This document shows, one piece after another, positions 27,262 to 56,138 of a stretch of 64,000 nt of DNA. The notes beneath the pieces were generated by a model. That model was given only the letters and a program-made list of their open reading frames with translations, was not told the origin of the DNA and made no database searches. Source of the stretch: Crambe crambe. Lineage: Eukaryota > Porifera > Demospongiae > Poecilosclerida > Crambeidae. The stretch spans positions 7,950,582-8,014,581 of the forward strand of contig OZ004583.1 of assembly GCA_963924555.1 (NCBI GenBank), read 5' to 3'. The number at the start of each line of letters is the position of its first letter. Positions within the stretch are counted from its first letter, which is position 1. The position numbers were made by a program, and so were the translations under genes.

Positions 27262-28015
27262 TTCCAATGTGAAGAGGGACTCGTCCCACAGGAGACAGTG
27301 ATGGCGACATGTCAACCAGATGGGACCTGGAACCCTGACCCTCTTAACTATTCCTGTGGCAGTCACACTATTACTACTAAAAAGTGAATCAAGTGACCAT
27401 TCTATTATAATTATTTCATGTGAGTAAAGTTTAATAGCTGTCGTCTAACAGTCCACCCTACGTAGCTAGTATTCCTGTGATACTGTAAACAGCTACTGGG
27501 CAACGACAACATGCCCCCCCCCCCCCCCCCCCCCCATGGTGAGAACATATCACATGGAGTTTGGAAAACAAAAGTAAATGTTAAAACACACCTGTTGCCA
27601 CTTGGTATTTCATGCTTGAACACAAAGTGCATTGTAACTCAATCATTAGCTATTAGCTAGAAATATTGAGCAGTTATTCCACTAACTTAACTAGACATTC
27701 CATCATGATATTCTCTGTTATCTATTATAAATCTTGATTTATCACAATCACTCCAGCAACAATGGACCTACTACCATCTGCATTGAGTACTTCCTCCATC
27801 ATTGCAATAGTCGTACCAACATCACTGGTTGCTATTGTCTTGCTGTACACATGTGGACTAGTGACTGGAATGTTTATTCAACGAAGAATCAGTAGGCTCC
27901 ATTCAGATGATTCACATCTCCAAACAAGGTCACATGATCTCCCATAGTCCACTCAACCCTCTTTCCACAAAAATTGAGCTGCAAGACCTACGGACCTGTG
28001 GGCTCTAAGTCTTAG
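27262..28015 (+). pseudogene. receptor-cluster copy A: CCP and TM exons only, broken
   Basis: A CCP (Sushi) exon begins abruptly in mid-domain near 27262 (homology starts at TTTCCAATGTGAAG), so its 5' part and all upstream exons are missing. A small deletion turns the linker into ACTACTAAAAAGTGA, an in-frame stop. The TM exon (from 27757) keeps its membrane helix but has CAG to TAG at 27945-27947. It has lost the stretch with the first tail tyrosine (YEEV) and ten bases before the second. The old stop survives at 28013-28015. An unambiguous relic of the same gene unit as the intact copies. A 22-base C tract lies in its intron (27514-27535). Confidence 0.9.
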
Positions 28016-28182
28016 ACAACCAGTCCTTTTACTATCATGGCAATTATAATTTCATTTGTATATGCATTGATGACCATGTTTCACATTCTGACATATTCAG
28101 TTCTGGAATGGGACGCTAGATTAGACAAGATTAGACAAGAGCATGCGCGCAGCAACCCACCGCTGTAGCTAGAGCTGTGAAG
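28016..28182 (+). promoter_or_regulatory. duplicated intergenic/promoter block of the receptor cluster
   Basis: The sequence from the stop of copy A to the start of copy B is nearly identical to 52245-52411 and 53996-54162, which stand in front of two other receptors. It includes GGGACGCTAGATTAGACAAG and GCATGCGCGC (28141-28150) 33 bp before the ATG. It is the repeated promoter of the tandem unit; the NRF-1-like box may drive it. Confidence 0.65.
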
Positions 28183-29984
28183 ATGCTGTATTTTATAATA
28201 CTTCTAGTATTTCTCTGTAAATCGTCAAAGTCAACTACACTAGACTGTTCCAGGACCAGGTCTTGTCCTGGAAACGAGTTTCACTGTGAATGTCAAGCTT
28301 CTCTTGTTCTGAGGTGGTTTGTTAGGCTTCCTGATGGCATACAGTGTATGAGAGAATATAATCTTGGTGATAATACTGTTGGTACCAGAATGCCTCTAGA
28401 CACTTGTCAGGCAAGTGTGATACTCACTAGCCTAATCATGAGCAATTTCACTTCAAGCCTTGATATATTCAACCTAACAAATCAGACAACTGTAAGTTGT
28501 CAAGGTAGAGATGGAACTAAGACACTGACTCTAAATACAACAAGTAAGTGATTATACATAGCTATAATTTTTCTTCATGCATCATGATTTACAGCCTCCC
28601 CTTCATCTCCGATGAATTTGAACTTCAGCTTAAATGGTACGAGTGTAAGACTGCAATGGGACCCTCCCCTGGACAATGGTGGAGTACCCATCACTGGTTA
28701 TCAGATCTTCATCAATTCATCTGAAGATGTATCAGTCAGTAATGACACTGAAGTGACCATTGTCCTGAATTCCACTGGAGAATACTTCATACAAATAAGA
28801 GCCATCAACTGCATTGGTGTTGGTTCTAATTTATCAGTATCAATCAATATCATAGGTATTAGCTAGCTAGATTTGTGACAGCTCTACATGTAAAAAATTT
28901 TTGTAGATCCTTGTGAGCCACCACCCAACAGTTCCCTCCCTGTTGGACTTCACGTCGTGTCTGTGGAAAGAGATCTCTTAGTTTTCCAATGTGAAGAGGG
29001 ACTCGTCCCGCAGGAGACAGTGATGGCAACATGTCAACCAGATGGGACCTGGAACCCTGACCCTCTTAACTATTCCTGTGACATAGTGACCACCAGAATA
29101 GGTTAGGATATAAGGTTTCTGGTCAACATGCCCACATAGAGTAGCTAGTAAGTAATAATAGCTACAGCTATGTACTGTAGTACAGTGCATGGCATGGTTA
29201 GAAGCTATCTTAACTATCTGGCCTGTAGATCACTAGCTAATTAGATATGTGCAGTTCTACTACGTATCTGCAGAGTCAGCTTCAATATCATAGCATGCTC
29301 AAATACAGAGGGCATGTATGTATGAGGCCATAGATATCAATCTGTTTCCACTATTAAAGCAGTTAGTTATCATGATATATATATATTTGTTTGTTTGTTG
29401 TTTTTTTGTTGTTGTTTTTTTGAGGGGTATCTATTATTGATAACTATTTATTCAGATTGTAATCCTCCAGTCTTTTGTCAGCTGAGGAATAATAGTACCA
29501 GGGAAGGGACCACTGTGTCCTTCCAGTGTGATGAAAGATTGTTTCCCTCTTCTAGTGAAGTCACTGCAGTTTGTGTTCATGGTGGGTGGGAAGTATTGAG
29601 CAGTTCATTCACTAGTAAGTATTCCATCACTATTACAATGGATACCTTAATCCTTTCTGTTATATAAACCTTGATAATCTTATCACAATCACTCCAGCAA
29701 CAATGGACCTACCATCTACATTGAGTACTTCCTCCATCATTGCAATAGTTGTACCAACATCACTGGTTGTTATTGTCTTGCTGTACACATGTGGACTAGT
29801 GACTGGAATGTTTATTCACCGAAGGATCAGTAGGTCCCATTCAGATCTCCAAACAAGGTCACATGATCTCCCACAGTCCATTGTATCTGCTCAACTAGTT
29901 CCAGAATATGAAGAAGTTTCTCTTTCTACAAAAATTGAGCTGCAAGAAAATGTTTCCTACGGACCTGTGTGCTCCAAGTCTTAG
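28183..29984 (+). CDS. receptor B: Ig-like / FN3 / CCP / CCP / TM with ITAM-like tail
   Basis: Five exons, 28183-28543, 28595-28855, 28907-29101, 29456-29614 and 29698-29984, join with every intron in phase 1 to give 420 residues. Residues 1-17 are a signal peptide. The first exon then carries a Cys-rich Ig-like domain (CPGNEFHCECQ, LRW, VSCQG). Exon 2 is an FN3 domain (LQWDPPLDNGGVPITGYQIF). Exon 3 is a classic CCP/Sushi module. Exon 4 is a CCP-like module that lacks the usual last Cys. Exon 5 holds one hydrophobic helix, basic RRISR after it, and Y396 (YEEV) and Y413 (YGPV) in the tail. A type I surface receptor is inferred; ligand unknown. Many N-x-S/T sites. The in-frame GTG two codons upstream is not used as start here. 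Confidence 0.88.
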
Positions 29985-30131: not shown

Positions 30132-31083
30132 GCTCCCCTTCATTTCCAATGAACTTGAACTTCAACTTATTAAATGGTACGAGTGTAAGACTGCAATGGG
30201 ACACTCCCCTGGACAATGGTGGAGTACCCATCACTGGTTATCAGATCTTCATCAACTCATCTGAAAATGTATTAGTCAGTAATGACACTGAAGTGACCAT
30301 TGTCATGAATTCCACTGGAGAATACTTCATACAAAAAAAAAAATAAGAGCCATCAACTGCATTGGTGTCAGTTCAAATTTATCAGTCTTGATTAATATCA
30401 CAGGTATAGGTATAGGTATAGTTGTTGTCTAACAGTGGAAATACCACCCTAAGTTGTGGAAATGGAACAGGTTAGCTGTAGCTGTAAAGCTACTGGTCAA
30501 CATCCCCCCCCCCCCCCCCCCCCCCCCCTCATAATGAGAAAATCATGGAGTTTAGAAAACAACACTTCTGTAATACGTTATAGCTAGTTATAATAGCTAA
30601 TTATCCAAATTTAGTAAACATCTGTACCCACTTGGTAAGCTAATAGATTTTCAGTTTACTACATGCTTGAATACACGAAGAACAAGAAAAAGTATTGAGA
30701 AGCTCATAGTACGTATAAGTAGCTAGATATAATCACCATTATAGCTAATGATGTGCTCTGTTATATTTATCCCAATCACTGCAGCAACAATGGACCTACT
30801 ACCATCTCCATTAAGTACTTCCTCCATCATTGCAATAGTTGTACCAACATCACTTGTTGGTGGACTAGTGACTGGAATATTTATTCAACGAAGGATCTGT
30901 AGGCTCCATTCAGATGACTCACATCTCCAAACAAGGTCACATGATCTCCCACAGTCCACTGTATCTGTTCAACTAGTTCCAGAATATGAAGAAGTTTCTC
31001 TTTCCACAAAAATTGAGCTGCAAGAAAATGTTTCCTATGGACCTGTGCTAGGCTATAAGTCCTACGTAGTAACAATTAGCTAA
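30132..31083 (+). pseudogene. receptor-cluster copy C: FN3 and TM exons only
   Basis: The FN3 exon (30132-30403) has an A run grown from 3 to 11, so its length is 272 nt and the frame is lost right after YFIQ. There is no signal/Ig exon and no CCP exon. The TM exon (30785-31083) is open, but seven codons are missing from the membrane helix (TSLV joins GGLVTG) and a short insertion replaces the usual GSKS end. Both tail tyrosines are kept. The intron between them contains a 25-base C tract (30504-30528). A truncated, probably dead unit. Confidence 0.85.
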
Positions 31084-31365
31084 GTCCTTTTTAATTTTTA
31101 TATGGACAATATCTAGTAGTCTATTTCATGTGTGGGCTGGAATTCACTTTCCATTGTTCCAGCTCAGCCCTTGCTCTCTTCTAAATACGATAAATTGTGG
31201 TGTAGCTAGCTACAATAGACATCCATCTCATATAGCTAGGTCCCTGTCTACACATGCAGTACAGTTAGTACTGAGTGCAAGCCATCTATTCCAAACTCTA
31301 CCCCTAGTCACCACGCCTCCTTGGAGTGCTGGTTTATTTCCTATGGAAGCCGAGAAGGGCAATTT

Positions 31366-31735
31366 CTAGCGATTTTGGGATCCGAAACGAAATTCCGAAC
31401 TGAAGAACCTTCCGCAGTGAAAATTCCGAACTGAAGAACCCTCCGCAGTGAAAATTCCGAACTGAAAAACCTCCGAAACGAAAATTCCGAACTGAAGAAT
31501 GAAATTCCGAACTGACGCCAGACTAATTCCGAACTGAAGAAAACTCCGCAGTGAAATTCCGAACTGAAGAACCTTCCGAACTGAACCTCCGCAGTGAAAA
31601 TTCCGAACTGAAGAAAACTCCGCAGTGAAATTCCGAACTGAAGACCTTCCGAACTGAAAACCTTCGCAGTGAAAATTCCGAACTGAAGAAAACTCCTTCC
31701 GAACTAGCTGCACTGAAGAAAACTCGCGCGGATCG
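31366..31735 (-). repeat. left inverted end array, unit about 30 bp
   Basis: Tandem units containing AATTCCGAACTGAAGAA and CCTCCGCAGTGAAA. They are the reverse complement of the array at 39060-39390 and define the left end of the insertion. The open frame through it is a by-product. Confidence 0.9.
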
Positions 31736-31989
31736 CGCGCTGACATGACGTCACCTAATAGCTAACGATTAATACCAGTTTATCGCTGTGCGAACTTTGA
31801 AGTAAGCGTACTACTTGGACATGGGCAAGACTTTAGATGGTAGGTAAATCCAAAGTAAATACTAAGTGAGCTGTTCATTCTTGGCAGTGATTCTCTGTGA
31901 ATTATTTTTTACATGGAGGCCATACAAGATCATTTTGGCTATTCTTAAGGAGAAGCATGGCATAAGAAGAAGGTAAGTATTTATCTGCT

Positions 31990-32280
31990 TTTAGACAATT
32001 TTATGAATAATTCCCTTTGATGTAATGAGGCACTATATCACGTAGTAACCACTTGCTAGGCCTGCAAGTGGTCAGGTATCTATGTGTCACAGTTAGAGAC
32101 CTGTGGTTTCAACTTAGAGACCTGTGGTTGTCATAAGACTATACACAGTTTATACTATTGTCTAAGTCAGTTAGATCACTCCAGTGAGTGACTACTCTGT
32201 TTACAATAGACACCTCGGCTCCGCCTCGGTATCTATTATAAACCTCGTAGTCACTCACTGTCGTGATCTAACCTATACTT
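31990..32280. repeat. dispersed repeat, first copy
   Basis: The segment starting AGACAATTTTATGAATAATT and containing GTAGTAACCACTTGC, AGAGACCTGTGGTT and GTGAGTGACTACTCTGTTTA recurs at 34722-34990 and, inverted, at 35030-35248. Its right half folds on itself around CACCTCGGCTCCGCCTCGGT. Confidence 0.75.
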
Positions 32281-32406
32281 AGTACCGTATTGTAGAGCCA
32301 AGAAAAATACTTCCAGGTTGGTACAAGAGTCAGTATTAAACTGAAGCGAGTGTAGTAGGTAATGATCAAGTGTAGTTCTAATATCGATCAATCAATGTTT
32401 ATAGTA

Positions 32407-33769
32407 TGAGATGGCTGAAGCAGCAATTTCAGCATTTGGGACTTAGAAGGCGTAAGCCAGATCCTCCAGAAATATACATCCACTACTTAATTAAGGTTAG
32501 TGTTATTTCTTAAAGCAAATCAATTATTAAATAATTACGTAGGCTGAACTGAGAACTTCCAGCTCTCTACTAAGTCTTGGTTATCGAGCTTTATGGAAGC
32601 TACTGCGTGATAAATATAGTGTGGAGACTCAGAGGTAAGGTAGAAGTTCATATTTCAAAAATTATACATACTACTAGCTTTTTTAGGGATACTATAATGA
32701 GAATTTTAAAGGCTGAAGATCCTGTGTGCAGGCTTAGAAGACTTTATAAAACAAGGTATGCTGAGCATATGGCAATGTGCCAAGAAGCATGCTAATTAGA
32801 TTGGTTCGTTTACTTAGGGACCAAACCATATTATGGCACGTGGATGGTTATGACAAATTGAGTCCCTATGGTTTCACAGTTCATGGTTGCATTGATGGGT
32901 TAGTTTTGAATAAAATTGATTCCAAGTGAACTTAAGTTTGAAATGTGCCATCTAGATTCTCTAGGAAAATCTTATAGTTGAAACTTTCTCCCTCTAATCA
33001 TAACCCTAAGTATATCTGTCGATACTACTTAGAACAACTAGAAGAGTTATCTGGTATGTTTCTGCTCTTATAATAGTATTAGTTATGTAATAACTATAGG
33101 ATGTCCTTCTGTGGTAAGATCTGATTATGGTACAGAAAACTGCAATCTTGCAGCTGTCCAGCTTGCAATTAGGAGCCAGCATGATAACGAGTTAGCCGGA
33201 GAGAGAAGTTTTATATATGCACCATCCAAGCACAATGTGGTATGCTATTGTAGCTACATCAACTCAATGACATGCAGAGTTTGGTTTTAGAGAATAGAGG
33301 GGTGGTTGTCACAATTACGACGAAGGAAGACTTATTTAAGACATTAGAAGATGGTTTGTTAGAGAAAGACTGACTTTCAAAGGTAAATAACATCACATTA
33401 TTGTTAATCAAGGTATTGCTTGACTTATGTGAGCCTTTCTCTTGAATATGAGCTAGAAAATTGTCAAGTATTGGAACTCGCATCTTATGTGCAAGAATAA
33501 ACAATTACAGACACCTAGTGGTGTGCCTAATGAAATGTACGAGATGCCTGCACTGTATGGTGAGCCGTTGATATTGCTATAATATAGTAGCTATTGTTAC
33601 TCTTTCAGGTAGTAGTGATCAGGTGAAGCCTTTTGATGTGGCTATATGGGTACATGCCATGTTAAATGAAAGTGAAACTTCATCCCCATTTCTGAGCATG
33701 AATTCTCAGACACGGGATAACATAAATCCTTCCAATATCCGTGCATTCTATTGTTTCTTGAGTCTTTAG
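32407..33769 (+). pseudogene. DDE integrase-core (rve) transposase-like gene, decayed
   Basis: Spliced blocks read MRWLKQQFQHLGLRRRKPD (an HTH-like segment), GYRALWKLLRDKYSV, DTIMRILKAEDP, WHVDGYDKLSPYGFTVHGCI, VVRSDYGTEN and WNSHLMCKNKQ. Their order and motifs are those of integrase-core proteins of sponge and cnidarian repeats (IS3-like/rve). The D of HVDGYDK and the D of RSDYGTEN fit the first two acidic residues of a DDE site. Exons splice in frame up to 32974, where the expected KILWL reads KIL-stop (TAG at 32975-32977). Two further frame changes are needed near 33320 and 33460. It is therefore inactive. Being inside the foldback-like insertion, it could be the remains of its own transposase or a separate earlier insertion. 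Confidence 0.75.
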
Positions 33770-34685
33770 GAACCACCTTCATTTCTAACTGAATAGGTAG
33801 TATCAGTAACTTTTGAGTATCTATAATTATTGAACTTTTGTCAGATGAGATTGAACTTTCATTAATTAAAAAAAAAATGCCAGAATGGACATTATCATAC
33901 GAGATTGAGTTTTACTACATGTAATTAAATGTCAATAGATTTGTTGTGTAGATCACTTTTCCCATAGGGACATTACCTGGTGGAAGCAATAATATTGATA
34001 CATGTGGCCACTATACAGTGAACACATACCTCAGCAGCAGATGGCCTCTTGCTATGTGCTCGTAGGCACTCTTTTTGGATTTCAAAAAGAGATAAACATT
34101 CTGCCTGGGCAAGTCGAGGGTCATGAAGCTTCTTAAATTTATCATATGATAATAAATCTTCCTGAATGTGGTCCACCTGTCAAAACCAAATGCTGAATAA
34201 TTCCAAGATATAACTGTGGTTCTATTACCAGTTTCTGGTCATCCCTATGCTTATCAAACACATATTGGCCTGTAAAGGTTTCTAATATCACCTGTGCAAA
34301 AAGATATAATATAAATGACATATAATGACTTGAGTATAGAACAGACCATTCCATAACAGTAAACATCACTACGGTCACTGAAGTGACCAGATGTGACCTC
34401 AGATGGGTAGTACCCTTCCGAACGGGCAATAGCTAAAGACGAAAACATAGTTTTGCCATGTGATAATTGTGGCAATTCAGTAGCAAATCCAAAGTCAGCT
34501 AACTTCCCGTGCATTGAACAATCTAGCAAAATGTTGGCTCTGTAAAAATAAATAAAAACCAGGCTTACATAGCAGTACTGACTTGCAAGTTGGCTGTCTG
34601 ATGCAAAATCTATAAAGTGCTTGAATAGATGTGGCTTTCCTTAATAAATAATTTGCAGACAACTAACTTGAAATTCTAAGTATAG

Positions 34686-35248
34686 GTTAGATCATGACAG
34701 TGAGTGACTACTAGGTTTACATTAGACAATTTTATGAATAATTCGATCCCTTTGATGTAATGAGGTACTATATCATGTAGTAACCACTTCCTAGGCCTGC
34801 AAGTGGTCAGGTATCTATGTGTCACAGTTAGAGACCTGTGGTTTCATACATTAAATTTCAAAATAAAAATTAAAAAAAATAGAGACCTGTGGTTGTCATA
34901 AGACTATACACAGTTTATACTATTGTCTAAGTCAGTTAGATCACTCCAGTGAGTGACTACTCTGTTTACAATAGACACCTCGGCTCGGTATCTATTGTAA
35001 ACCTGTAGTCGCTCACTGTCGTGCTGTACATAGATACAGAGGCGGAGTGGAGGTGTCTATTGTAAACAGAGTAGTCACTCACTGGAGTGATCTAACCGAC
35101 TTAGACAATAGTATAAACTGTGTATAGTCTTATGACAACCACAGGTCTCTCTAACTATGACACATAGATACCTGACCACTTGCAGGCCTAGCAAGTGGTT
35201 ACTACATGATATAGCTAGTGCCTCATTACATCAAAAAATTGTCTAAGA
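34686..35248. mobile_element. palindromic MITE in a kinase intron
   Basis: The left half (34722-34990) contains GTAGTAACCACTTCC, AGAGACCTGTGGTT and GAGTGACTACTCTGTTTACA. The right half (35030-35248) repeats the same words in reverse complement. The arms are over 200 bp with a short centre. Related to 31990-32280. Confidence 0.8.
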
Positions 35249-35321
35249 TCAAAGTTAACATCCTACCCATACAGCTGGACCACAGGGCTGAGACTACAAG
35301 GCACGAGGGCGGAGTGTTTAT

Positions 35322-35731
35322 CCAGCTACAGTGGATTTCAGCTGAGTTGTCCATAGACTTCAGAAATAGGAGTGTCTTAGTTGTTTACATAATGTTATTG
35401 TGATAAACCACCATTGTGGTTTTGGTTACAGGTCAAAGTACAATTTTGGCTCCAAGTAGCTTTTTAGCCATGGCTAACTTTAACTACTTCTCTCACTATC
35501 GCCATCCACACAGACCTCCATCTAAGGTCTTCAGAGTAGGCTCTGGGCATCTCTAACTCCTAAAAAATAGCTACCAAGTTCAGAAATTTGAATTCTAAGC
35601 ATGCTCAGTTGCAGTGGTGTATGTTTGTGTCTGAATGACCCTCAAACAGTCAGTTGTGGTTAAGTATGTAAACTGCTAAGACACTCCTATATCTGAAATC
35701 TATGGACAACTCAGCTGAAATCCACTGTAGC
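35322..35731. mobile_element. second MITE with 70-bp inverted ends in the same kinase intron
   Basis: 35322-35393 (AGCTACAGTGGATTTCAGCT then GAGTTGTCCATAGA) is matched in reverse complement at 35658-35731. The centre (about 265 bp) has no recognised coding sequence. Confidence 0.8.
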
Positions 35732-38700
35732 TGTGAATACACAACAGTGATCTAGTATCAGCTTTTCATTTTTTCTAGGCTCCAAGGTTGAAGTAATTCT
35801 TAAACTCACTGGAAAAGTTGTTCATAAGTTTTCATACAAGCATTTCCAATAACAGTTGGACAACTGAAGTGAAAAGCATCTTGACTACTTTCCCTCTACC
35901 ATCAGAGTGCAATTATAGGGTATGCTTAAACAGGTCACCTTGTTTAAGAACTATAGCTATGACCTTGACCCAGTGGTATCTTTGGCAAAATCCTGCTCCA
36001 GCAATTCTCTGTACTCAAATTACTACAAATGTCTGGAAGAGTTTAGATAGTTCCACCACTTGAAGGGACTGAGATATTTGGAAACTATCATTTTGCAGGA
36101 TTTCCCCCTCACTGGCAGCCAGAATCTAATAGTAAACAGACAAGCTAGCAAGTAGTACTTATTGACATGGGCAACTCAGGACCAGCCTGACACACCAGAA
36201 ATGCTTGTTGGAGTGTACTGACACAGAGAGAGAGAGAGAGAGAGAGAGAGTAAATGAAATATATTTCAACCCACGATTTGATATCTTGATGAATCATTGG
36301 TGGAGATGAACTGTGCAAGTACACTAGTCCTCTACAAGTATCCTTCAAAATTGAATATCTCTGCTCCCATGTGAGAGGTGCCTCGTCCTGCAAGGGAAGC
36401 TGAATTTCAGAATTCTAATTATTAGACCAACAGGCAGCTGCTATCACCTTTGCACTCCCATATAAAGTATCTCATACAGACATGCTGTATACCTTAAATT
36501 TGTGTATCTTGTCATATAAACTGCCATTGATCATTAATTCATAAACTAAAGCTTGAGGTTTCAGACAAAAGCCAGAGTTGCAATATATTAGGGTGCCGAA
36601 ACCTGCAGGATTGAGTGAAATCAAGGTTAATTCTTAATGTTGAGTACTTTATACCTTGTTAATGCTGTCACTTCTGACTGCATTTGTGCAGCTGGCTGAC
36701 ACTTCATTAAAGCATTTTGCCCCACCTGCCATAGATTGAATAACCTTTAATAACCTTTGTCATGCATGCCATAGTAAGATGATAATTATTATACACACTG
36801 ATGTCAAAACTTTCACTGCCACCTCCATACATCCTCTGACTGATCCCCGATATACACTGCCAAAACCACCCCTACCGAGAAGATTCCTCTTGCTATAATC
36901 ATTTGTAGCTTTTGCAAGCTCTGCACCATCAAATTGCATGCAGTTACCTAATAATAGCAATAAATAATGTTACTTGGCCAAAGATGACAAGCACAAACAT
37001 ACCAGCTTCAATCTTAGGCCCTGGTTTTCGACTACTCCTTGGTTGGTGCTGATTCTCTACTAATAGTTTCTGTCTCTTACCTATCGTAATAGTTATCACT
37101 TATTGCACGGTTTCTAATAAACTGTGCATACTTTGCTTGATTACAACTTTTGCAGGAATGAAATCCTCATCATCAGATGGCACAGAGATAATGGCACCTT
37201 TACCCATGGATTGAACTGCAGGATTATGAGTGAACTGACCAGATACATTACTTGGGATGGCTTCGGTGGAATCTTTCTGGGAGGATGGTGGTTCCTCATA
37301 AGGACCACCGAAAGGGAGAGTAGAAGCAATCAAATCATCTTCTTTTGCATCTTGATATGTGGAATAGCCACTAGAACCTGCAAGTATATTTTCTGAATAA
37401 AGTGTTTTTGTACCTCTTAATGACTTACATCCCATCTTTTCACATCTATCCTATACAAACATAAATTATGTATCAAGGGCATAGCCATAGGCTTTCTGAA
37501 GTTAACCTACCTCAATGTAGCCAATCCCAAGCCGCACTTCGGTTTTATGAATCCTGCGCAAGTATTTTCCAAGATTCCAATCAGGACTGTCTGAGATAAT
37601 GGCACCAGAAAGGTTAAAAAGTGACAGCACCTGACCACCATGCTGGCAGCTCAATTGGAATGCACTACGGGAACGTTCTAATAGTTGGTTATAATTGTCT
37701 GAAGAATCTGCCATCACTTCAATTGAAGCCCCATCACGTCCATATGCACCTCTTCTCCCCTTCTTCATCATACATACACTAACCTAGCACAACAATTTAT
37801 GGTTCTAGCTAGGTTTAGCTATTAATTTTTTTAAAAATTACTGTAACGTGATTATCATCCAATCTTCCTTTGCCTTTTTTAAGACGATTTTTCTGTTTTA
37901 TCTGTAGGGCTTTCCCTCTAGCTATAAGGGAAGCTGGATCTAGAGAAGGTGCTATAAAAGCAAGAGGATCAATTTAATACCATTAATAGCTCTATTATAG
38001 CTATACTTACAAACTGGAGATACTGCTTCTCCACCTAAGGCGGCCTCGATCTCTGTAGCAAACCTTTTAGTAATGTCCAATACCTTGCGCTTATCCATGT
38101 CCACGCCACCGCGGCTGTTGCAGACACGCATTGCAGTAACTGCAAACACGCGTACGTTGTTCGTAATAATAATTATGACGTCGACATCACTATGTACCTT
38201 GCTGAGCTCGAGGAGTCATTGCTTGAACAGCTTCATCAGCCTTGAGATATCATATATTTTATTATAACATCAACATCATGCATAGCCTACCTTATCGTAT
38301 TCCACGTTAGCCACATCCATGTACAATCTTATGACTACCTCGGGGACTAAAACATCCATTACATACCCAAATAACTAGGTATACAACCTTGTATAATATC
38401 ATAGATTATGGTAGCTATAGCTATACTTTCTACCTTCATATCATTTGGACAAAATGTCTTCAACATTTGTGAAGCTACCAGCTCATGTTGCTGTTCCGTT
38501 AAGTGGAGTCTAGAGCAGCATAGTTTTAGTGCTGCTATAGAGAGAATTTAAATATATAATTATAGCTGTGTAAACAAATGATGGGTGGGAGAAAACTTGA
38601 TGATTACTGTAGCTACAACAACCTAATACCCTTTGTACATACCCCTTTTCTTAGGTGGCCCATTTTTAAAGACACTGTGCCTCCATGAGTAAATCTACAA

Positions 38701-38975
38701 ATTAAACAACTAAGTTATAAATATAAATTTCCTGAGTAGGCTAACTATCACCTTTTCGGCTTTAATATCTAACACAACTTTATTTAACTGGTCGACCTTG
38801 GCCAGTAACTCGCATTCCTGATCTAGCAGAGAAAAAACAACAACAAACTAGCTAATGTAGCTGTTATACGACATGGAGCAACATAGAGTTAGCTAGCTTA
38901 CTGGCCAAAGACATAGCTGACAAGGGGAACGGACCTTCGTTCTTTGTAATAGGTACGACTAGTATACCACGACAA

Positions 38976-39455: not shown

Positions 39456-41096
39456 ATGCTAAGTTTAGTGTTGCTACTTGTTTTTTCCTGCAATTTGTGT
39501 GTCATGTCTGTAATACTAAACTGTTCTCATAAGAATTCCACCTGCCCTGGAGGAGAGTTCTACTGTGAATGCCAAACTCTTGGTTTTCTTTCTTTGGTGA
39601 TAAACGATTCCAGCATTACGTACTCAGGCTTACTAAATTCCTGCTCTGGGAGTATCACCATTCCAGGTATTCAAGAGATCCAGTGTACCAGTATGCGTCT
39701 GAATAACACAGCAAGACTTACTTCCAGATTTAATGGAACTCTCACAAGTAAACTTATCATTCAATGTCAGGATAGCAGAACTTCAGATATCATTGCCCTT
39801 CAGCCACCAAGTAAATACCCATTACCATAATAGCTAATGACAGAATTTAAAAAAAAAATCATGCAGGGTCTCCTTCATCTCCAAGGAATTTTTCAGTGAT
39901 AGATACATACACCAGTGGTAGTTCCTTAATTGTGAGACTACAGTGGGACCCTCCTTTGGACGATGGTGGAGCAGCAATCACTAATTATCAGATCTTTGTA
40001 AACTCATCTGATTCAGAAGTATTGTATCAAGTGGTCAGTAATGAAACAACCATTGTCCTGAATTCCACTGGAGAATACTTCATACAAATAAGAGCCATCA
40101 ACTGCATTGGAGTCAGCTCAAACTCAATTCCCATCACATTCACAATTACAGGTATCTATATTATCCCAATTTGATGTCAGCTGATTCCTATTATTGTTAT
40201 TATAGATTCTTGTGAACCACCCAACAGTTCCCTCCCTGTTGGACTTCACATTGTGTCTGTGGAAAGACATCTCTTAGTTTTCCAATGTGAAGAGGGACTA
40301 GTCCCACAGGAGACAGTGATGGCAACATGTCAACCAGATGGGACCTGGAACCCTGACCCTCTTAACTATTCCTGTGACAGTCATACTACTACTGAAGATA
40401 TTGGAACTAATGAAAGTAATCACACTACCGGTACTACAATTATTTTATGTGAGTATATAAATCGTGGAAATACCGATATTCTTGTGAAAATGGAACAGGT
40501 TAGCTAGCTAGCTGTAAAGCTACCAGTCAACATGCCCCCCTCATGGTGACATAATCATGGAGTTTAGAAAACAACACTTCTGTTATGTTATAGCTAGTAC
40601 AATAATTATCCAAAAGTAAACATCTGTACTCACTTGGTACCATAAGCTACAGTTCACTACATGTATTTTCATGCTTGAATACACAAAGAACAAGAAAAAG
40701 TATTGAAAAGCTCATAGTAGCTAAGTAACTAGATATAGTTATATTCCATCACCACTACTAATGATGTGCTCTGTTATATTCATCCCAATCACTCCAGCAA
40801 CAATGGATCTACAACTATCTGCATTGAGTACTTCCTCCATCATTGCAATAGTTGTACCAACATCACTGGTTGTTATTGTCTTGCTGTACACATGTGGACT
40901 AGTGACTGGAATGTTTATTCAACAAAGGATCTCTAGGCTCCATACAGATGACTCACATCTCCAAATAAGGTCACATGATCTCCCACAGTCCACTGTAGCT
41001 GCTCAACTAGTTCCAGAATATGAAGAAGTTTTTCTTTCCACTAAAATTGAGCTGCAAGAAAATGTTTCCTATGGACCTGTGGGCTCTAAGTCTTAG
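39456..41096 (+). CDS. receptor D: Ig-like / FN3 / CCP / TM with ITAM-like tail
   Basis: Four exons, 39456-39810, 39867-40151, 40206-40448 and 40798-41096, all phase 1, encode 393 residues. The signal peptide is MLSLVLLLVFSCNLCVMS. The Ig-like exon is a second sequence class (CPGGEFYCECQ, LVINDSSITYSG) and differs strongly from receptor B. FN3 has LQWDPPLDDGGAAITNYQIF. One CCP with a longer Thr/Asn-rich stalk replaces the two CCP modules of B and I. TM helix, then Y369 (YEEV) and Y386 (YGPV). The start codon is only 48 bp from the end of the 8-kb insertion, so transcription may depend on the insert. Receptor G at 51121 has the same first exon almost base for base. Confidence 0.87.
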
Positions 41097-41939
41097 TAAC
41101 TTCATGTTATAATAGTCGATCTACTTATGCTTTTTTGTTTTGTTTCTGTTTTTGTGATGAACTTTGACCCCAACATGAATCAAGCGCATGCTCATACTTA
41201 TTACTATTAGTAGAGCTAAGTGAATACAATAATAAATGTCAAGCTTGAAAGCTGCTGTCTTGCTTCTCTCCATCCATCAGACAGTATCGGTGACATTAAA
41301 TTGTTCTGCTTACACTGTGTCCTAGAAAAGCAACCTGCCAATGTCAAACAGACCCTGGTAGCTAGCTACATAGCTATCTTCTCACTCTTAGTGTCACTTC
41401 AAACGATGGTTCCACACTCATAGATCTATAGATTATTGGTAATAATGGCAACTGTAATAGATCTTCAGTCACAGAAGTTGTCATGTGATGGAGTGAATGA
41501 AAACACTAAGGCGACTTCACACTGCCTAGCAGTTAACTGTAACTAGTCGCTCTGCAGGCTTGGGCACTCATAGGAGGTTCAACATGATAGGGTAAGCTTA
41601 TTGATACTTAAACACCACTTCGTACGTGCAAGGGACTGTAAAAAAAGTATTATAATAACATAGGTGGACCGTGGAGGAAGACTGAGTGGGACAGGGACTG
41701 CATGACCACAAAAGGCACTGAAATGTACCAGATAGCTAGTTCAAGAAGTCTTTGAAGGAGGGCATGTGCCCTGGGTCCCCCCCCCTGGTTCTTCCAATAT
41801 GTCATTTTATCAAGTTCCTCTATAATTATAGAAAGATTAGTATATTTGTGTTCATTGATCATAAGTGATTCTCACTTGACTAAACCATGATACACTATCC
41901 ACTCTCTCTCTCAATACGTAATTGAGAAAGTTGTAGGAT
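41097..41939. other. intergenic, no gene seen
   Basis: A C-rich word GTCCCCCCCCCTGG at 41777-41791 resembles the dispersed G-tract repeat. Nothing else is supported. Confidence 0.4.
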
Positions 41940-45941: not shown

Positions 45942-45960
45942 TAGAGATGAGAACAATAAA

Positions 45961-45972
45961 TGCGCATGCGCA
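45961..45972 (-). promoter_or_regulatory. perfect NRF-1-like palindrome before the pore-former-like gene
   Basis: TGCGCATGCGCA, 20 bp upstream of the chosen ATG on the minus strand. Confidence 0.5.
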
Positions 45973-46041
45973 ACAATACATACATTAGTCTCGTGAATGA
46001 ACCAGACCCCTACGCGCGAAAAAGCGGAAGGGTCTGGTGCA

Positions 46042-46083
<42 letters not shown>
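46042..46083. repeat. 42-base G tract
   Basis: The longest homopolymer in the window; length in the genome is uncertain because such runs are hard to sequence. Confidence 0.9.
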
Positions 46084-46084
<1 letters not shown>

Positions 46085-46507
46085 CGGATAAGGTCAATTA
46101 TTGCTGAGTAGGCACTTTTTATTCACATAGAATTTCAATACATTTTTTGAAGTTGCTATTCCTCGAGATGTGTACGCTTTGAATGAACTTGAACTGGACT
46201 GTAGATAGATCTAACAGGTAGATTTCTGAAAATCGACTGAACCCAATCCATCCCCGTCCTGTTTTGGAGATTCAGAAAAAGGTTAATTGCTCACTGAATT
46301 TCAAACCCCAGCTAAAACTGGTTTGCTTTCTAGCAACTAGCTTACTAGATCTTTCTTGTGCCAAGGTAAAATCATCTACAAACGCTTAAAGCTGGAGAAA
46401 CAGCCTATCAAACATCAGGTTAATTACATTCCAACCATTCTTTACTGCGCAGCCAATTTCGCGAAAAGCTTGTCCGACCCCCCCTAGCCCTGGGTCTGGT
46501 GAGTGTA

Positions 46508-47984: not shown

Positions 47985-50780
47985 ATGGTATCTTTTTTGC
48001 TTATTAGCACTATATTTTTGTGCTCCATCTATGTTGTCTTGGGAATTCCTGTTCTGGACTTCTACTTTCCTTCACGAAGGGAAGCTCCAAATGTGTTCAG
48101 GTTTGAGTGTCGTGATCTAATTGATGGTATGGCTTACCCTGATGCAAGATTCGAGATTAATGACAGTAGCTATGGGTGTACTAATCAGAAATCGATCTAC
48201 AGATATAAATGAGGAGTATTTCACATATGACATAACTGAAGATTTCGAGGCCAGTGTTCGCTGCATCACTGGAGAAGAATACTCAAAGGCTATCATGTTT
48301 TATGGTAATTATAAGCTATAGCTACATGCAATGTCATACCTGCAGGTGCAATGGGATTTACAACATTGTAATAATTATGTATAACTAATTATTTCTTGAA
48401 AAAGTCAATAGTTTAGTGAAGTATCTAAACATAATAGGAATATCTATAAATTGTCTCAGGGTGACAACCTCTACACGAAGGATCTCCATTTTATCCCTCA
48501 CTAATATACATTGTAACACCATAATTATATCCCAAGGGGGCATAGCCCAAGATGTCTGTCATGTAGCTAGCTATTGCAATAATGTAGCTACATGACTGTA
48601 CAGTTACAAGTTAGTTACTAAAAATAGAATAGCTGTCTATCTTGGGGAATTCTAATCTTTTCTTCAGAGGAAAGATTTACATAACAAAAATAAAAATTAG
48701 TATCGATAAACATGGCCATAATGTTCTTTGGGACATAGCTAGCTAGCTACCATATCAAATTGTTTGTTCCTTGATGCTTCCTCTAGCTACGTAGCTATCC
48801 ACACTTTTATTCATCCCCAAAATACTATTTCCTCCACATAAATAATATACAGACCTACAGACCTCTTGCAATCAATTATATTTATTCTACTAGCTAAGCA
48901 TATCCATGCTTTTAACGTCCCAGTGTGTTTAATATAAATATCTGGCAAGTAATAACCACGAAATGCATAGCTACCCTCAATATTATTATCAGTATTTAGG
49001 GGATGAATAAAAGAGGTATGGATATTTCTAACTAGAGAGTAATATCTATGATGATGCAGCTATCCCAACAGTGTCTAATCAAACTACAATGACTAGTGTA
49101 TTCCATGGTGATTCACATGCAATGTTGATGTGCCCCATACCACTGCCTACTGTATGCAGTTCATACACTATAATATGGGAGCAACTTGTGGATTCAACTC
49201 CAATACAAATGATTCAGAGTCAAGAGGATACTACATACTCTCTCAAAATAACAGAACCCTTTCTGTACTGATATCTAACTCCACTGATCAGATGGTATTT
49301 CGATGTAAAGTAATATTGAAACGTAGCTCTGATCCTCAACGTTGTCCATTAGATACAATACTGGGACCACTCATGGAATTTCTTATAGGTGAGATCTTAC
49401 ACAATACCATAAGATGCGTATTATCATGATACTACAATAATAGGTCAAAGTTTAATTATTAAGCTACAGTTATAACTAGCTTTGCTATCCTCCTTGTTAT
49501 TATTTGGTAGATCCTTGTGAACCACCACCCAACAGTTCTCTCCCCATTGGACTTCACATTGTGTCTGTGGAAAGAGATCTCTTACTTTTCCAATGTGAAG
49601 AGGGACTAGTCCCACAGGAGACAGTAATGGCGACATGTCAACCAGATGGGACCTGGAACCCTGACCCTCTCAACTATTCCTGTGGCATAGTGCCCACCAG
49701 AACAGGTTAGCTAGCAAAATTGGCTAGTGTTTCATGGTGAGAAAATTAATTTTACAATCACATGATATAGAGTTAAATGTTGTGAAATAGTGTAGCTAAA
49801 TAAACTTAGCTATCTAAGCTACAGCTACAAAGCATGGATAGATGACATAGCTAAAGTCTATTTCTAGCTAAAGTCTATTATTTTGTATTCACCTTGCCCC
49901 TTGATCCTTCACTAGCTATAACTGCTATAACTTTCTCAATTCTTAAGAGAGAGTGGATGATCAGCTCTCTGTTGATGCATTAAAGTAGAAATTTGGTTAA
50001 GAACTGATAGTGAATGATCAAGGGGCAAGGTGAATGCAACCTATTATAATGATGGCCTTAGCTTATGCTGACTATCATAGTATGCTCAAGTGTAGTTATA
50101 AAGCTAACTGGGAATTACCAAGTAATTAGTTCATGACTCTCTATCCTACAGGACATGAGGCTGTGTAGTAGTATCCATGGAGCTTGTAACCTACTCTGGT
50201 AGTTGAATTTTCCTCATAGCTATTATACGTAACTATTGAATGTCATTGATTCAGATTGTGGTCCTCCAGTCTTGTCGTTCTTGTGCCAGCCGAGGAACAA
50301 TAATTCCAATTCCAGGGAAGGGTCCACTGTTTCCCTCCAGTGCGATAAGAGATTGCTTTTCTCTGGTAGTGAAGTCACTGCAGTTTGTGTTGGTGGTGGG
50401 TGGGAAGTATTGAGCAGTTCATTCACTCGTAAATATTCCATCACTATATCAAATATTTCCTTACTACATGTATTTATCCAGCAACAATGGACCTACTACC
50501 ATCTCCATTGAGCACTTCCTCCATCATTGCAATAGTTGTACCAACATCACTGGTTGTTATTGTCTTGCTGTACACATGTGGACTAGTGACTGGAATATTT
50601 ATTCAACGAAGGATCAGTAGGCTCCATTCAGATGACTCACATCTCCAAACAAGGTCACATGATCTCCCACAGTCCACTGTAGCTGCTCAACTAGTTCCAG
50701 AATATGAAGAAGTTTCTCTTTCCACAAAAATTGAGCTGCAAGGAAATGTTTCCTATGGACCTGTGGGCTCTAAGTCATAG
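47985..50780 (+). pseudogene. receptor F: two Ig-like exons / CCP / CCP / TM, two frameshifts
   Basis: Exons 47985-48304, 49060-49388, 49511-49705, 50255-50428 and 50482-50780. The signal peptide is MVSFLLISTIFLCSIYVVLG. Exons 1 and 2 are Ig-like and unlike the other copies (FECRDLIDG...VRCITGEE; AMLMCPIPLP...RTLSVLISNSTDQMVFRCKV). There is no FN3 exon. Exon 1 is 320 nt where 319 or 322 is needed, and a stop appears at 48210-48212. Exon 2 is 329 nt where 327 or 330 is needed, with the break in a CTCTCTC run near 49238. The two shifts cancel, so the CCP, TM and YEEV/YGPV tail exons downstream are intact and in phase. Either a recently broken gene or two single-base sequence errors in a working one. 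Confidence 0.75.
48305..49059. other. intron 1 of receptor F
   Basis: 755 bp, AT-rich, with CCCCAAAATACT words on both strands; no gene seen. Confidence 0.5.
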
Positions 50781-51120: not shown

Positions 51121-52244
51121 ATGCTAAGTTTAGTGTTGCTACTTGTTTTTTCCTGCAATTTGTGTGTCATGTCTGTAATACTAAACTGTTCTCATAAGAA
51201 TTCCACCTGCCCTAGAGGAGAGTTCTACTGTGAATGCCAAACTCTTGGTTTTCTTTCTTTGGTGATAAACGATTCCAGCATTACGTACTCAGGCTTACTA
51301 AATTCCTGCTCTGGGAGTATCACCATTCCAGGTATTCAAGAGATCCAGTGTACCAGTATGCGTCTGAATAACACAGCAAGACTTACTTCCAGATTTAATG
51401 GAACTGTGTATGTATCTATCACTGAATAATTCCTAGGAGATGAAGGAGACCCTATTATACGTATATATGATTTTTTAACTGTCATTATCTATAATATGGT
51501 TATAGGTATTTTACTTGGTGGCTGAAGGGTAATGATATCTGAAGTTCTGCTATCTTGACATTGAATGACTAGTTTACTTGTAAGCCAGTGGTAGTTCCTT
51601 AATTGTGAGACTACAGTGGGACCCTCCTTTGGACGATGGTGGAGCAGCCATCACTGATTATCAGATCTTTGTAAACTCATCTGAAGCAGATCTTTGTCAA
51701 CTCATCTGAAGTATTGTATCAAGTGGTCAGTAATGACACTGAAGCCACTATTACTTCATACAAATAAGAGCCATCAACTGCATTGGGGTCAGTTCAAACT
51801 CAGTTCCAATCAATATCACAATTACAGGTAGCTATCTATAATTATTATCCCGATTTGATATTATTATTTATTTATTTTTCTTATGTTAGCAAATGAATTC
51901 GCTAACATAAGTATTCCATCACTATATTAAATATTTCCTTAATCCTTAAACTACATGTATTTATTCAGCAACAATGGACGTACTACCATTTGCATTGAGT
52001 ACTTCCTCCATCATTGCAATAGTTGTACCAACATCACTGGTTGTTATTGTCGACTGGAATATTTATTCAACGAAGGATCTGTAAACTCCATTCAGATGAC
52101 CCACATCTCCAAACAAGGTCACATGATCTCCCACAGTCCACTGTAGCTGCTCAACTAGTTCCAGAATATGAAGAAGTTTCTCTTTCCACAAAAATTGAGC
52201 TGCAAGAAAATGTTTCCTACGGACCTGTGGGCTCTAAGTCTTAG
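51121..52244 (+). pseudogene. receptor G: class-2 copy broken by a micro-inversion
   Basis: The first 285 bp of coding sequence match receptor D almost exactly. At 51406 the sequence turns into the reverse complement of D's exon1-intron1-exon2 junction (D 39741-39912) and returns to the normal direction at about 51585. The FN3 exon that follows has an internal duplication (CAGATCTTTGT.AACTCATC twice) and lacks the VLNSTGE codons. No CCP exon. The TM exon (from 51969) has a 23-bp deletion after VIV that removes half the helix and shifts the frame; the tail with both tyrosines is then open in another frame to 52244. Clearly dead. Confidence 0.9.
51406..51584 (-). other. micro-inversion inside receptor G
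   Basis: About 179 bp, from GTGTATGTATCTATCACTGA to GTTTACTTGTAAG. It spans the end of exon 1, intron 1 and the start of the FN3 exon, aligned in reverse complement to receptor D. Breakpoints are sharp, and flanking sequence on both sides is collinear with D. Confidence 0.85.
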
Positions 52245-52411: not shown

Positions 52412-53995
52412 ATGTTATATTTTATAATGCTTCTAGTACTTCTCTGTAAATCGTCAAAGTCAACTACACTAGACTGTTCCAGGACCAGATCTTGTCCTAG
52501 AAACGAGTTTCACTGTGACTGTCAAGCTTCTATTGTTTTGAGGTGGAGAGTTAGGCTTCCTGATATCATGCTGTGTATGAAAGATTATAATCGTGGTGAT
52601 ATTACTGGTATGAGAGAGCCTTTAGTAGGCACTTGTCAGGCAAGTGTGATACTCTCTAACCAAACCAATAGCTACTTCAACTCAAGCCTTGACATCAACC
52701 TAACAAATCAGACAACTGTAAGTTGTCAAGGTCTAGGTGGAATTAAGACACTGACTCTAAATACAACAAGTGAGTGCCAGCTGTTATACCCATAGCTACA
52801 TATAGCTAGTTTTCCTTCATGCATCATATTTACAGCCTCCCCTTCATCTCCGATGAACTTGAACTTCAGCTTATTAAATGGTATGAGTGTGAGACTGCAA
52901 TGGGACCCTCCCCTGGACAATGGTGGAGTACCCATCACTGGTTATCAGATCTTCATCAACTCATCTGAAGATGTATTAGTCAGTAGTGACACTGAAGCGA
53001 CCATTGTCCTGAATTCCACTGGAAAATACTTCATACAAATAAGAGCCATCAACTGCATTGGTGTTGGTTCTAATTTATCAGTTTTGATAGGTATATTAGA
53101 TTTGTGATGTTAGCTACAGCTAGAACTATAACTGTCCTACATGTAAATTTAGATCCTTGTGAACCACCACTCAACAGTTCCCTCCCTGTTGGACTTCACA
53201 TTGTGTCCGTGGAAAGAGATCTCTTAGTTTTCCAATGTGAAGAGGGACTCGTCCCACAGGAGACAGTGATGGCAACATGTCAACCAGATGGGACCTGGAA
53301 CCCTAACCCTCTTAACTATTCCTGTGACAGTCACATTATTACTACTGATGAAAGTGAATCAAGTGACCATTCTATTATAATTATTTCATGTGAGTAAAGT
53401 AATAGCTGTCGTCTAACAGTCCACCCTAGCTAGTATTCCTGTGATGATGAGAACTGTAAACAGCTACTGCATGGGCAATGACAACATGCCCCCCATGTAT
53501 AATTATCACATGGAGTTTGGAAAACAAAGTAAATGTTAAAACACACCTGTTGTCACTAGCTAGGTGTTTTCATGCTTGAACACAAAGTGCATCATTAGCT
53601 ATTAGCTAGAAATATTGAGCAGTTATTCCACTAACTAGCTAGATATTCCATCATGATGTTCTCTGTTATTGTATAAACCTTGATTTATTCCAGCAACAAC
53701 TGACGTACTACCTTCTTCTGCATTGAGTACTTCCTCCATCATTGCAATAGTTGTACCAACATCACTGGTTGTTATTGTCTTGCTGTACACATGTGGAATA
53801 GTGACTGGAATATTTATTCAACGAAGGATCAGTAGGCTCCATTCAGATGGCTCACATCTCCGAACAAGGTCACATGATCTCCCACAGTCCACTGTAGCTG
53901 CTCAACTAGTTCCAGAATATGAAGACGTTTCTCTTTCCACAAAAATTGAGCTGCAAGAAAATGTTTCCTACGGACCTGTGGGCTCTAAGTCTTAG
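52412..53995 (+). CDS. receptor H: Ig-like / FN3 / CCP / TM with ITAM-like tail
   Basis: Exons 52412-52769, 52836-53090, 53153-53389 and 53694-53995, all phase 1, 383 residues. Signal peptide MLYFIMLLVLLCKSSKS. The Ig-like exon belongs to the B/I class (CPRNEFHCDCQ, LRWRVRLPD) but differs in the middle (MLCMKDYNRGDITGMREP). The FN3 exon is two codons shorter than that of B, having lost the 'NII' end. One CCP with a stalk rich in D, E and S (as in D) leads to the TM exon. Tail motifs Y359 (YEDV, a variant) and Y376 (YGPV). It combines the N-terminal class of B with the CCP type of D, which points to exon exchange between copies. Confidence 0.88.
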
Positions 53996-54162
53996 ACAAC
54001 CAGTCCTTTTACTATCATGGCAATTATAATTTCATTTGTATATACATTGATGACCATGTTTCAGATTCTGACATATTCAGTTCTGGAATGGGACGCTAGA
54101 TTAGACAAGATTAGACGAGAGCATGCGCGCAGCAACCCGTCGCTGTAGCTAGAGCTGTGAAG

Positions 54163-56138
54163 ATGCTGTATTTTATAATACTTCTAGTATTTCTCTGTAA
54201 ATCGTCAAAGTCAACTACACTAGACTGTTCCAGGACCAGGTCTTGTCCTGGAAACGAGTTTCACTGTGAATGTCAAACTTTTGTTACTCTGAGGTGGTTT
54301 ATTAGGCTTCCTGATGGCATACAGTGTAGGAATGAATATGTTCTTCTTGATACTGTTGGCATGAGACGTTTAGACACTTGTCAGGCAAGTGTGATACTCT
54401 CTAACCAAACCAATAACTACTTCAACTCAAGCCTTGACATCAACTTAACAAATCAGACAACTGTAAGTTGTCAAGGTGGAGGTGGAACTAAGACACTGAC
54501 TCTAAATACAGCAAGTAAGTGATTAAACCTAGCTAGCTATAGTTTTTCTTCATGCATCATGATTTGTATATTTTATAGCCTCCCCTTCATCTCTGATGAA
54601 CTTGAACTTCAGCTTAAATGGTATGAGTGCAAGACTGCAATGGGACCCTCCCCTGGACAATGGTGGAGTACCCATCACTGGTTATCAGATCTTCATCAAC
54701 TCATCTGAAGATGTATTAGTCAGTAATGACACTGAAGTGACCATTGTCCTGAATTCCACTGGAAAATACTTCATACAAATAAGAGCCATCAACTGCATTG
54801 GAGTCAGCCCAAATTTATCAGTCTTGATCAATATCATAGGTATATTAGATTTGCGATGTTAGCTACAGCTATAACTATCCTACATGTAAAATTTAGATCC
54901 TTGTGAACCACCACCCAGCAGTTCCCTCCCCTTTGGACTTCACATTGTGTCTGTGGAAAGAGATCTCTTAGTTTTCCAATGTGAAGAAGGACTCATCCCA
55001 CAGGAGACAGTGATGGCAACATGTCAACCAGATGGGACTTGGAACCCTGATCCTCTTAATTCTTCCTGTAATATAGTGCCCACCAGAACAGGTTAGCTAT
55101 AGGATATATGGTTTCTGGTCAACATGCCCACATAGAGTCAACATTACAAGCTAGCAAGTAAGAAAGCAAACTTCTGCTAGCTATAATAGTGCATGGCATG
55201 GTTAGAAGCTATCATAGCTTAACTATCCGGCCTGTAGATCACTAGCTAATTAGATATGTGACTCCAATTTGTAGTTCTACTATGTATCTGCAGAGTCAGC
55301 TTTAATATCATATAGCATGCTCAAATACAGAGGGCATGTGTGTATGAGGCCATAGATATCAATCTGTTTCCACTATTATAGCAGTTAGTTATCATGATCT
55401 TTTTGTTCGTTTTGTTGTTTTTTGTTGTTGTTTTCATTTTAGTTTTTGGTTTTTTGTTTGTTTTTGTTGTTGTATTTTTGTATTTTGTTTTTTGTTGTTG
55501 TTTTTGGTTGTTGTTTTTTTTTGTTTTTTGTTTTGTTTTGTTGTTTTTTTGTTTGTTTTTTTGTTTTTAGCTATCATTGTTTATTATTGATAACTATTTA
55601 TTCAGATTGTGGTCCTCCAGTCTTATGTCAGCTGATGAATAATAATTTCAGTACCAGAGAAGGGACCACTGTGTCCTTCCAGTGTGATGAAAGATTGCTT
55701 CCGTCTGCTAGTGAAGTCACTGCAGTTTGTGTTCATGGTGGGTGGGAAGTATTGAGCAGTTCATTCACTAGTATGTATTCCATCACTATTACAATGGATA
55801 GTCATACCTTAATCCTTTCTGTTACCACAATTGCTCCAGCAACAATGGACATACTACCATCTGCATTGAGTACTTCCTCCATCATTGCAATAGTTGTACC
55901 AACATCACTGGTTGCTATTGTCTTGCTGTACACATGTGGAATAGTGACTGGAATGTTTATTCAACGAAGGATCAGTAGGCTCCATTCAGATGACTCACAT
56001 CTCCAAACAAGGTCACATGATCTCCCACAGTCCACTGTAGCTGCTCAACTAGTTCCAGAATATGAAGAAGTTTCTCTTTCCACAAAAATTGAGCTGCAAG
56101 AAAATGTTTCTTACAGACCTGTGGGCTCTAAGTCCTAG
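54163..56138 (+). CDS. receptor I: Ig-like / FN3 / CCP / CCP / TM with ITAM-like tail
   Basis: Exons 54163-54514, 54579-54839, 54897-55091, 55606-55770 and 55840-56138, all phase 1, 423 residues. Same architecture as receptor B. The Ig-like exon shares CPGNEFHCECQ and LRWF but diverges after it (RNEYVLLDTVGMRRL). The first CCP ends SSCNIVPTRTG; the second CCP again lacks the last Cys. Tail Y399 (YEEV) and Y416, where the motif reads YRPV instead of YGPV. The last intron (55771-55839, 69 bp) has no stop and is a multiple of three, so an unspliced form would add 23 residues in frame. Intron 3 carries a (GTTTT)n-type expansion at 55400-55570. Confidence 0.88.
55395..55572. repeat. G/T-rich simple repeat in intron 3 of receptor I
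   Basis: Irregular TTTTTGTT units; receptor B has a much shorter form at 29385-29422. Confidence 0.85.

Follow-up and report, generated by a model that had tools for sequence, protein, structure and literature searches.

A tandem cluster of Ig-like, FN3 and CCP receptor genes with a two-tyrosine tail in the sponge Crambe crambe

Results and discussion

We analysed a stretch of 64,000 nucleotides (nt) from the demosponge Crambe crambe (GenBank assembly GCA_963924555.1, contig OZ004583.1, here C5, positions 7,950,582-8,014,581), called the window below; positions are window coordinates unless C5 is stated. Between 27.3 and 56.1 kb the window carries four intact receptor genes of 383-423 amino acids (aa) and about five broken pieces, arranged in tandem. 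The encoded proteins consist of an Ig-like N-terminal domain, FN3, one or two CCP (Sushi) domains, a transmembrane (TM) segment and a tail with two tyrosines. We interpret the cluster, with a probability of about 0.65, as a birth-and-death family of single-pass cell-surface recognition receptors that signal by tyrosine phosphorylation.

Structure of the receptor genes

The spliced models of the intact genes U2, U4, U7 and U8 each have an uninterrupted frame between ATG and stop codon, and all of their introns are GT-AG and of phase 1. One domain corresponds to one symmetric phase-1 exon. The first exon holds the signal peptide and the N-terminal domain; FN3, CCP1 and an optional CCP2 follow, and the last exon holds TM and tail, signal peptide and TM having been recognized by inspection of the sequence. 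In U4 and U7, which lack CCP2, CCP1 ends in a longer Ser/Thr/Asn-rich stretch. In-register repeats in the window amounted to seven copies of the tail region, six of CCP1 and four of FN3. The units are as follows.

27262..28012, plus strand: scrap consisting of the 3' part of a CCP1 exon and a TM exon, with one stop and one deletion; 86% identical to 53229-53893 over 714 nt
28183..29984, plus strand: U2, intact, 420 aa, two CCPs; exons 28183-28543 (signal and Ig-like), 28595-28855 (FN3), 28907-29101 (CCP1), 29456-29614 (CCP2), 29698-29984 (TM and tail); based on splice model, Pfam and predicted fold of the first domain
30134..31083, plus strand: U3, broken; frameshift in an A-run splits FN3, TM exon shortened; N-terminal and CCP exons were looked for in this interval and not found
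39456..41096, plus strand: U4, intact, 393 aa, one CCP, divergent N-terminal domain; exons 39456-39810, 39867-40151, 40206-40448, 40798-41096; based on splice model and Pfam
41236..41485, plus strand: remnant of an N-terminal exon of another type, resembling the gene at C5:7,945,760; found by tblastn with proteins P0015 and P0017 (see below)
47985..50780, plus strand: U5, broken; two extra extracellular exons (Ig-like by eye), each with an internal frame change, and open exons 49511-49705 (CCP1), 50255-50428 (CCP2) and 50482-50780 (TM and tail); no FN3 was found, and the two frame pieces of the second extra exon had no Pfam match
51121..52241, plus strand: U6, broken; part inverted, stops in FN3, deletion in TM exon; N-terminal exon 100% (rounded) identical to that of U4 over 300 nt; no CCP exon found in this interval
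52412..53995, plus strand: U7, intact, 383 aa, one CCP; exons 52412-52769, 52836-53090, 53153-53389, 53694-53995
54163..56138, plus strand: U8, intact, 423 aa, two CCPs; exons 54163-54514, 54579-54839, 54897-55091, 55606-55770, 55840-56138

A first-pass annotation of the window had counted eight units and a scrap, four of them intact, which fits the four intact and four or five broken copies modelled here. The FN3, CCP, TM and tyrosine-tail modules that it proposed were likewise borne out by the splice models and, for FN3 and Sushi in U2 and U4, by Pfam.

Divergence gradient and mosaic genes

Together with its part left of the window, the array comprises ten complete genes (see below), which form 45 pairs. 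Among these, the synonymous difference was 0.50 in the N-terminal exon, 0.29 in FN3, 0.18 in CCP1 and 0.07 in the TM/tail exon; CCP2, with seven copies, gave 0.18. As protein constraint is expected to have little influence on synonymous sites, the tail half shares more recent ancestry, probably by exchange or conversion.

The nearest relative of an array gene varies exon by exon. Genes G4 and G7 are 95% identical in CCP1 and 98% in CCP2, while the N-terminal exon of G7 is at most 45% identical to that of any other gene compared. Similarly, U2 together with the preceding scrap matched a stretch just left of the window with 91% identity over 1.4 kb, while the CCP2-TM end of U2 was 91% identical to G1 and 85% to the left-flank gene that matches its front. 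With intact, broken and mosaic copies side by side, the birth-and-death evolution proposed from the window is well supported by the gene models, the divergence gradient and the exon-wise relatives.

Variation within the N-terminal domain was examined in 16 type-I domains, eight from this assembly and eight from a second contig described below, with gaps counted as a letter. It peaked at residues 37-51, i.e. in strand C' and the C'-C'' turn, a CDR2-like position (mean entropy 1.56, against 0.57 elsewhere). A window of 15 residues was equally high in one of 20,000 shuffles, and in 26 of 20,000 when the second-contig domains were used alone. As for positive selection, pN/pS was 1.32 at residues 37-51, compared with 0.69 for the remainder of the mature domain; the difference from 1 was not significant for either value.

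Identity of the domains

Pfam was run on two of the intact proteins, U2 and U4. The fn3 model scored 35.6 and 32.4 bits, respectively (cut-off 25), and the Sushi model 35.9 and 20.8 bits (cut-off 20.7), so that U4 barely passes. A sequence search with U8 matched titin and complement-type chains; at full length, U8 had no relative at E up to 0.01 in a large protein database of undisclosed taxon content.

The N-terminus had been called Ig-like, and this held for its predicted fold but not for its sequence profile. With E values of up to 1 allowed, no Pfam Ig model matched any of 20 members, and the best of six matches to the PDB by sequence (E 0.099) was not an Ig protein. The structural model (predicted local distance difference test, pLDDT, 91.6) has an Ig beta-sandwich fold, with T-cell receptor V domains as the closest structures and Ig domains of MHC class II nearly as close, and the Ig core residues are retained in the N-terminal domains. 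By prediction, the first domain would therefore be an Ig domain on account of its fold and V-like strand order.

Extent of the array and further copies in the genome

The start of the array had been placed at 27.3 kb, but six more complete genes lie to the left of the window (C5:7,932,655-7,949,887), ending about 0.7 kb from its edge. The whole array spans C5:7,932,655-8,006,719, with broken pieces between the complete genes; complete here means that a frame-open model exists, the modelling having favoured splice sites that keep the frame open. Hidden Markov models built from the window exons led to annotation of the four C5 stretches which hold all 17 N-terminal matches, the gaps between stretches lying outside the annotation.

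The genome searched comprised 143.14 Mb in 119 contigs, among them C5 (9,494,484 bp) and C9 (8,843,633 bp). The N-terminal exon gave 17 matches, all on C5. Of 24 tail matches, 23 were on C5 and one on C16, at 35% identity, and FN3 gave 30 matches, seven of them outside C5 at 40% identity or less. More complete genes were located at C5 8.246 and 8.450 Mb, and outliers reached up to 0.6 Mb from the array. A wing of N-terminal and FN3 exons occupies the opposite strand at C5 8.20-8.23 Mb; the copies read there have a Ser/Thr-rich exon in place of CCP and a shorter tail. Directly behind a receptor gene of this wing, at C5:8.197 Mb, lies a 531-aa frame with a CARD above cut-off (L036:2132-3724, minus strand), and similar pieces were seen by eye after two other wing genes.

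In the gene at C5 8.572 Mb, the ectodomain of the family precedes another kind of TM and EYAAV-type repeats. The repeated-EYAAV frames were noted in L050/L051 (C5:8,572,091-8,574,811), together with a Death-like exon, recognized by eye, that was dropped for lack of a Pfam match.

A probable second version of the locus

A profile of N-terminal domains (A1) retrieved 18 proteins from a protein-only database clustered at 90%, in which contigs were told apart by size and not by specimen, with members of the family itself as the sole control. Four proteins (P0001, P0002, P0007, which is U7, and P0011) were on a contig of 1,366,394 bp and matched the assembly exactly. The other 14 were on a second contig of 2,571,004 bp. 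Its eight full-length type-I open reading frames (ORFs) have related mature domains, four of which were 92-94% identical to the nearest of the eight type-I domains in the assembly, while those of P0006, P0008, P0009 and P0013 were 72-84% identical to the nearest type-I domain. For P0012, P0016, P0017 and P0018, identity was 63-84% over the longest matches. Seven intact tails on the second contig were 90-97% identical to the nearest assembly tail.

Two proteins were closer still to the assembly: P0015, which corresponds to exon 1 of array gene G7 (99%), and P0014, which represents a distant Ig-like exon located at 8.249 Mb (100%). They were tried as independent neighbours and dropped, P0015 being part of G7 and P0014 itself a row of A1. 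On the plainest reading of these sequences, the second contig would represent the other haplotype or another conspecific individual, with some genes near-identical and others without a close counterpart. A single-copy family without polymorphism in other individuals had been named beforehand as the finding that would count against a recognition locus. In the part of that comparison carried out here, other N-terminal variants appeared on the second contig, although the specimen is not named and one array gene is 99% the same.

The two-tyrosine tail

The alignment was made of the 15 long open tails, setting aside those of the 23 C5 matches that are broken and the divergent ones encoded at 8.20-8.23 and 8.29 Mb. 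All 15 have both tyrosines, in general within the motifs YEE(D)V and NVSYGPV (one reads YEVS at the first site), with tyrosines 17 residues apart in 11 tails and 14-16 in the others. The immunoreceptor tyrosine-based inhibitory motif (ITIM) is (S/I/V/L)xYxx(I/V/L), and the activation motif (ITAM) is YxxL/I, 6-12 residues, YxxL/I. As a sequence motif, the ITIM pattern fits the second tyrosine in 14 of 15 tails (R1 has NAAY) and the first tyrosine in none. The ITAM pattern was absent from these tails: at position +3, the first motif has V in 14 tails and S in one, and the tyrosines stand 14-17 residues apart. We take YEEV to resemble a Src-family SH2 ligand and NVSY to fit, apart from ITIM, an NxxY PTB site.

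Among the 7,999 candidates with the most words in common, a search with a tail profile found ten more proteins with 35-47% identity, nine of them from contigs measuring 0.6-3.3 kb and the tenth from a contig of 1.8 Mb. Eight of these ten carry both YE(E/D)(V/I) and IE(L/M)xEN(V/I/M)(A/S)YGP, and P0035 and P0039 deviate in one of them. Judging from these sequences, the tail module is likely common to several sponges, and its recurrence on other contigs offers a handle on further receptors with the same signalling end. SH2 exons gave at least 135 matches in the genome among 150 scored of 166 candidates. Many SH2 exons are clustered at C5:1,468,041-1,522,148 (minus strand), where several pairs about 420-445 bp apart perhaps belong to tandem-SH2 proteins.

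A model of the family and alternative explanations

In the model that we favour, the outermost V-like Ig domain, with its hypervariable C'-C'' segment, would be the most likely ligand binder, FN3 and the CCPs would serve as stalk and spacer, and the tail tyrosines would become docking sites for SH2 and/or PTB proteins after phosphorylation. Copies would arise by tandem duplication and unequal exchange through the phase-1 exons. Gene conversion or recent exchange would keep the 3' half alike, while the 5' exons would diverge and swap, and each haplotype would combine a particular set of front ends with the shared signalling tail. Since G7 is 99% identical on both contigs, not every copy varies.

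The genes might also encode ordinary adhesion or matrix receptors, tandemly duplicated by chance, in which constraint on the front ends is relaxed and these drift. This agrees with the frequent occurrence of FN3 and Ig in adhesion proteins, with a pN/pS that stays under 1 across most of the domain, and with the non-significant excess at the variable segment. However, the variability is concentrated in one stretch, the Ig core is kept and the ten array genes are open, where pure relaxed drift predicts otherwise, and we find such an origin unlikely. It seems quite improbable that the second-contig variants come from another population or species, or from an assembly artefact, while the cluster itself is fixed. 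The make-up of the clustered protein database leaves room for this, as does the membership in the family, or likeness to it, of P0014 and P0015, which therefore give no outside control. Nevertheless, their identity to the assembly is what is expected within one species, and the exact matches of P0001, P0002, P0007 and P0011 point the same way.

If the genes are recognition receptors, their ligands might be microbes, symbionts or debris, with diversity driven by microbes and not by kin. We regard this as possible. The CARD-containing ORF behind the 8.20 Mb wing gene is consistent with it, and so is the available part of a study of A. aerophoba, where Ig-, FnIII- and Sushi-domain genes shift expression after microbial elicitors (PMC6208332), although those genes have no demonstrated kinship to the present family. 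More tentatively, the genes might be allorecognition (histocompatibility) receptors proper, whose variable domain tells self from other sponges at tissue contact, as in alr/fuhc. This would suit a single cluster with variant front ends, a common tail and a variable V-like domain, and Botryllus FcoR, as far as the source consulted in part describes it, is analogous in architecture and gene-content variation (PMC12065747). The near-identity of G7 on both contigs argues against allorecognition. Moreover, variation among paralogues and haplotypes marks microbe-sensing receptors as well.

Returning to the birth-and-death family of recognition receptors, its role could be immune or allorecognition, and the cluster is a good candidate for discrimination between self and other or between friend and microbe in sponges. 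It is doubtful, though conceivable, that it forms the receptor half of a sponge histocompatibility locus, with haplotype-specific V-like front ends diversified in a CDR2-like loop and exon-exchanged onto one homogenised two-tyrosine tail. If this were true, the plan of a variable front and an invariant tyrosine-signalling back would exist in sponges independently of, or before, its tunicate, cnidarian and vertebrate versions.

Comparison with known systems

No description of the family was found in the literature on sponge receptors, allorecognition and Crambe immune receptors, at the level of titles and the beginnings of abstracts. The earlier statement that no described family has exactly this domain order holds in the literature examined, with the Botryllus fester co-receptors as a close analogue (PMC12065747, consulted in part). 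According to the same part of that review, FcoR has a V-type Ig domain, sushi, two C2 Ig domains, a TM and an ITIM or hemITAM tail, and fester-family genes are clustered in haplotypes that differ in gene content (PMC12065747). In both systems, clustered genes encode type I receptors that have Ig and sushi domains on the N-terminal side, a TM and a tyrosine tail. The sponge genes combine Ig, sushi, TM and tyrosine tail within one type I protein, plus an intervening FN3; in contrast, FcoR has two C2 Ig domains and no FN3 mentioned in the excerpt used, fester has three TMs, and the host is a chordate.

In Hydractinia, Alr is a 41-gene family of the allorecognition complex with unusual V-set and I-set domains (PMC11999971, in part), and ITIM/ITAM motifs occur on candidate genes (PMC12065747, in part). 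The tandem V-set and I-set order differs from the sponge genes: the four intact ones of the window have a single Ig-like domain each, and two such domains were seen, by eye, only in broken U5; besides, Hydractinia is a cnidarian. To our knowledge, Alr proteins lack sushi domains. The sponge family might work like Botryllus FcoR/fester or Hydractinia Alr, both of which were compared with it by description.

Among sponges, SRCR, NLR and Ig-TIR genes form large or characteristic receptor families, and SRCR genes can mix FN3 and Sushi (PMC6208332 and PMC8242945, in part). Unlike these, U2 and U4 had no SRCR, TIR, NACHT or kinase domain in Pfam. Aggregation factors are candidate allorecognition molecules of sponges. 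The excerpts consulted describe the sponge aggregation factor as an extracellular proteoglycan complex (PMC11999971) and cite a paper on its gene family (PMC12065747). The domains known from it were not found in U2 and U4 by Pfam. The vertebrate KIR/LILR clusters contain tandem Ig receptors with tyrosine motifs that evolve by birth and death and form haplotypes of differing gene number. We know of no FN3-CCP stalk in them, and their likeness to the sponge family would be convergent at most.

Clustered variable Ig receptors with tyrosine tails are therefore a known kind, and the family itself appears new to the literature examined. In the portion of the Botryllus review at hand, how allorecognition works in invertebrates is described as a complete mystery, and no sponge receptor is named (PMC12065747); a comparable receptor candidate on the sponge side did not appear in the sources consulted. 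As the cluster is compact, has variable and constant parts that can be delimited, and can be seen in an openly available reference assembly, sponge recognition becomes a testable question.

Neighbouring genes and other loci

The array is interrupted by a minus-strand block with kinase-like exons (31341-39447), flanked by satellite stretches whose 132-nt inverted arms are 100% complementary. One ORF piece of this block, Pelle/IRAK- or RLK-like by eye, matched Pkinase with E 3e-6 and 27.2 bits, below the cut-off of 31.7. A 364-aa open frame at 45006-46097 (minus strand) scored 18.1 bits with ETX_MTX2, below the cut-off of 22, and possibly encodes an aerolysin-type pore-forming animal protein. 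Adjoining the last receptor gene, an 804-aa open frame at 56321-58735 (minus strand) contains an F-box above cut-off.

On C9, many FN3 matches several kb apart extend over about 1.2 Mb (2.34-3.53 Mb) and represent another very large family; several FN3-like exons stand in a row at its locus L008. Kinship of this C9:2.3-3.5 Mb family with the receptors was considered and found unsupported, as tail, FN3, N-terminal and CCP queries had no match there. Finally, one or more tandem genes at C9:1,727,900-1,731,700 have alternating FN3 and CCP exons, with a distant likeness of 38-39% in FN3.

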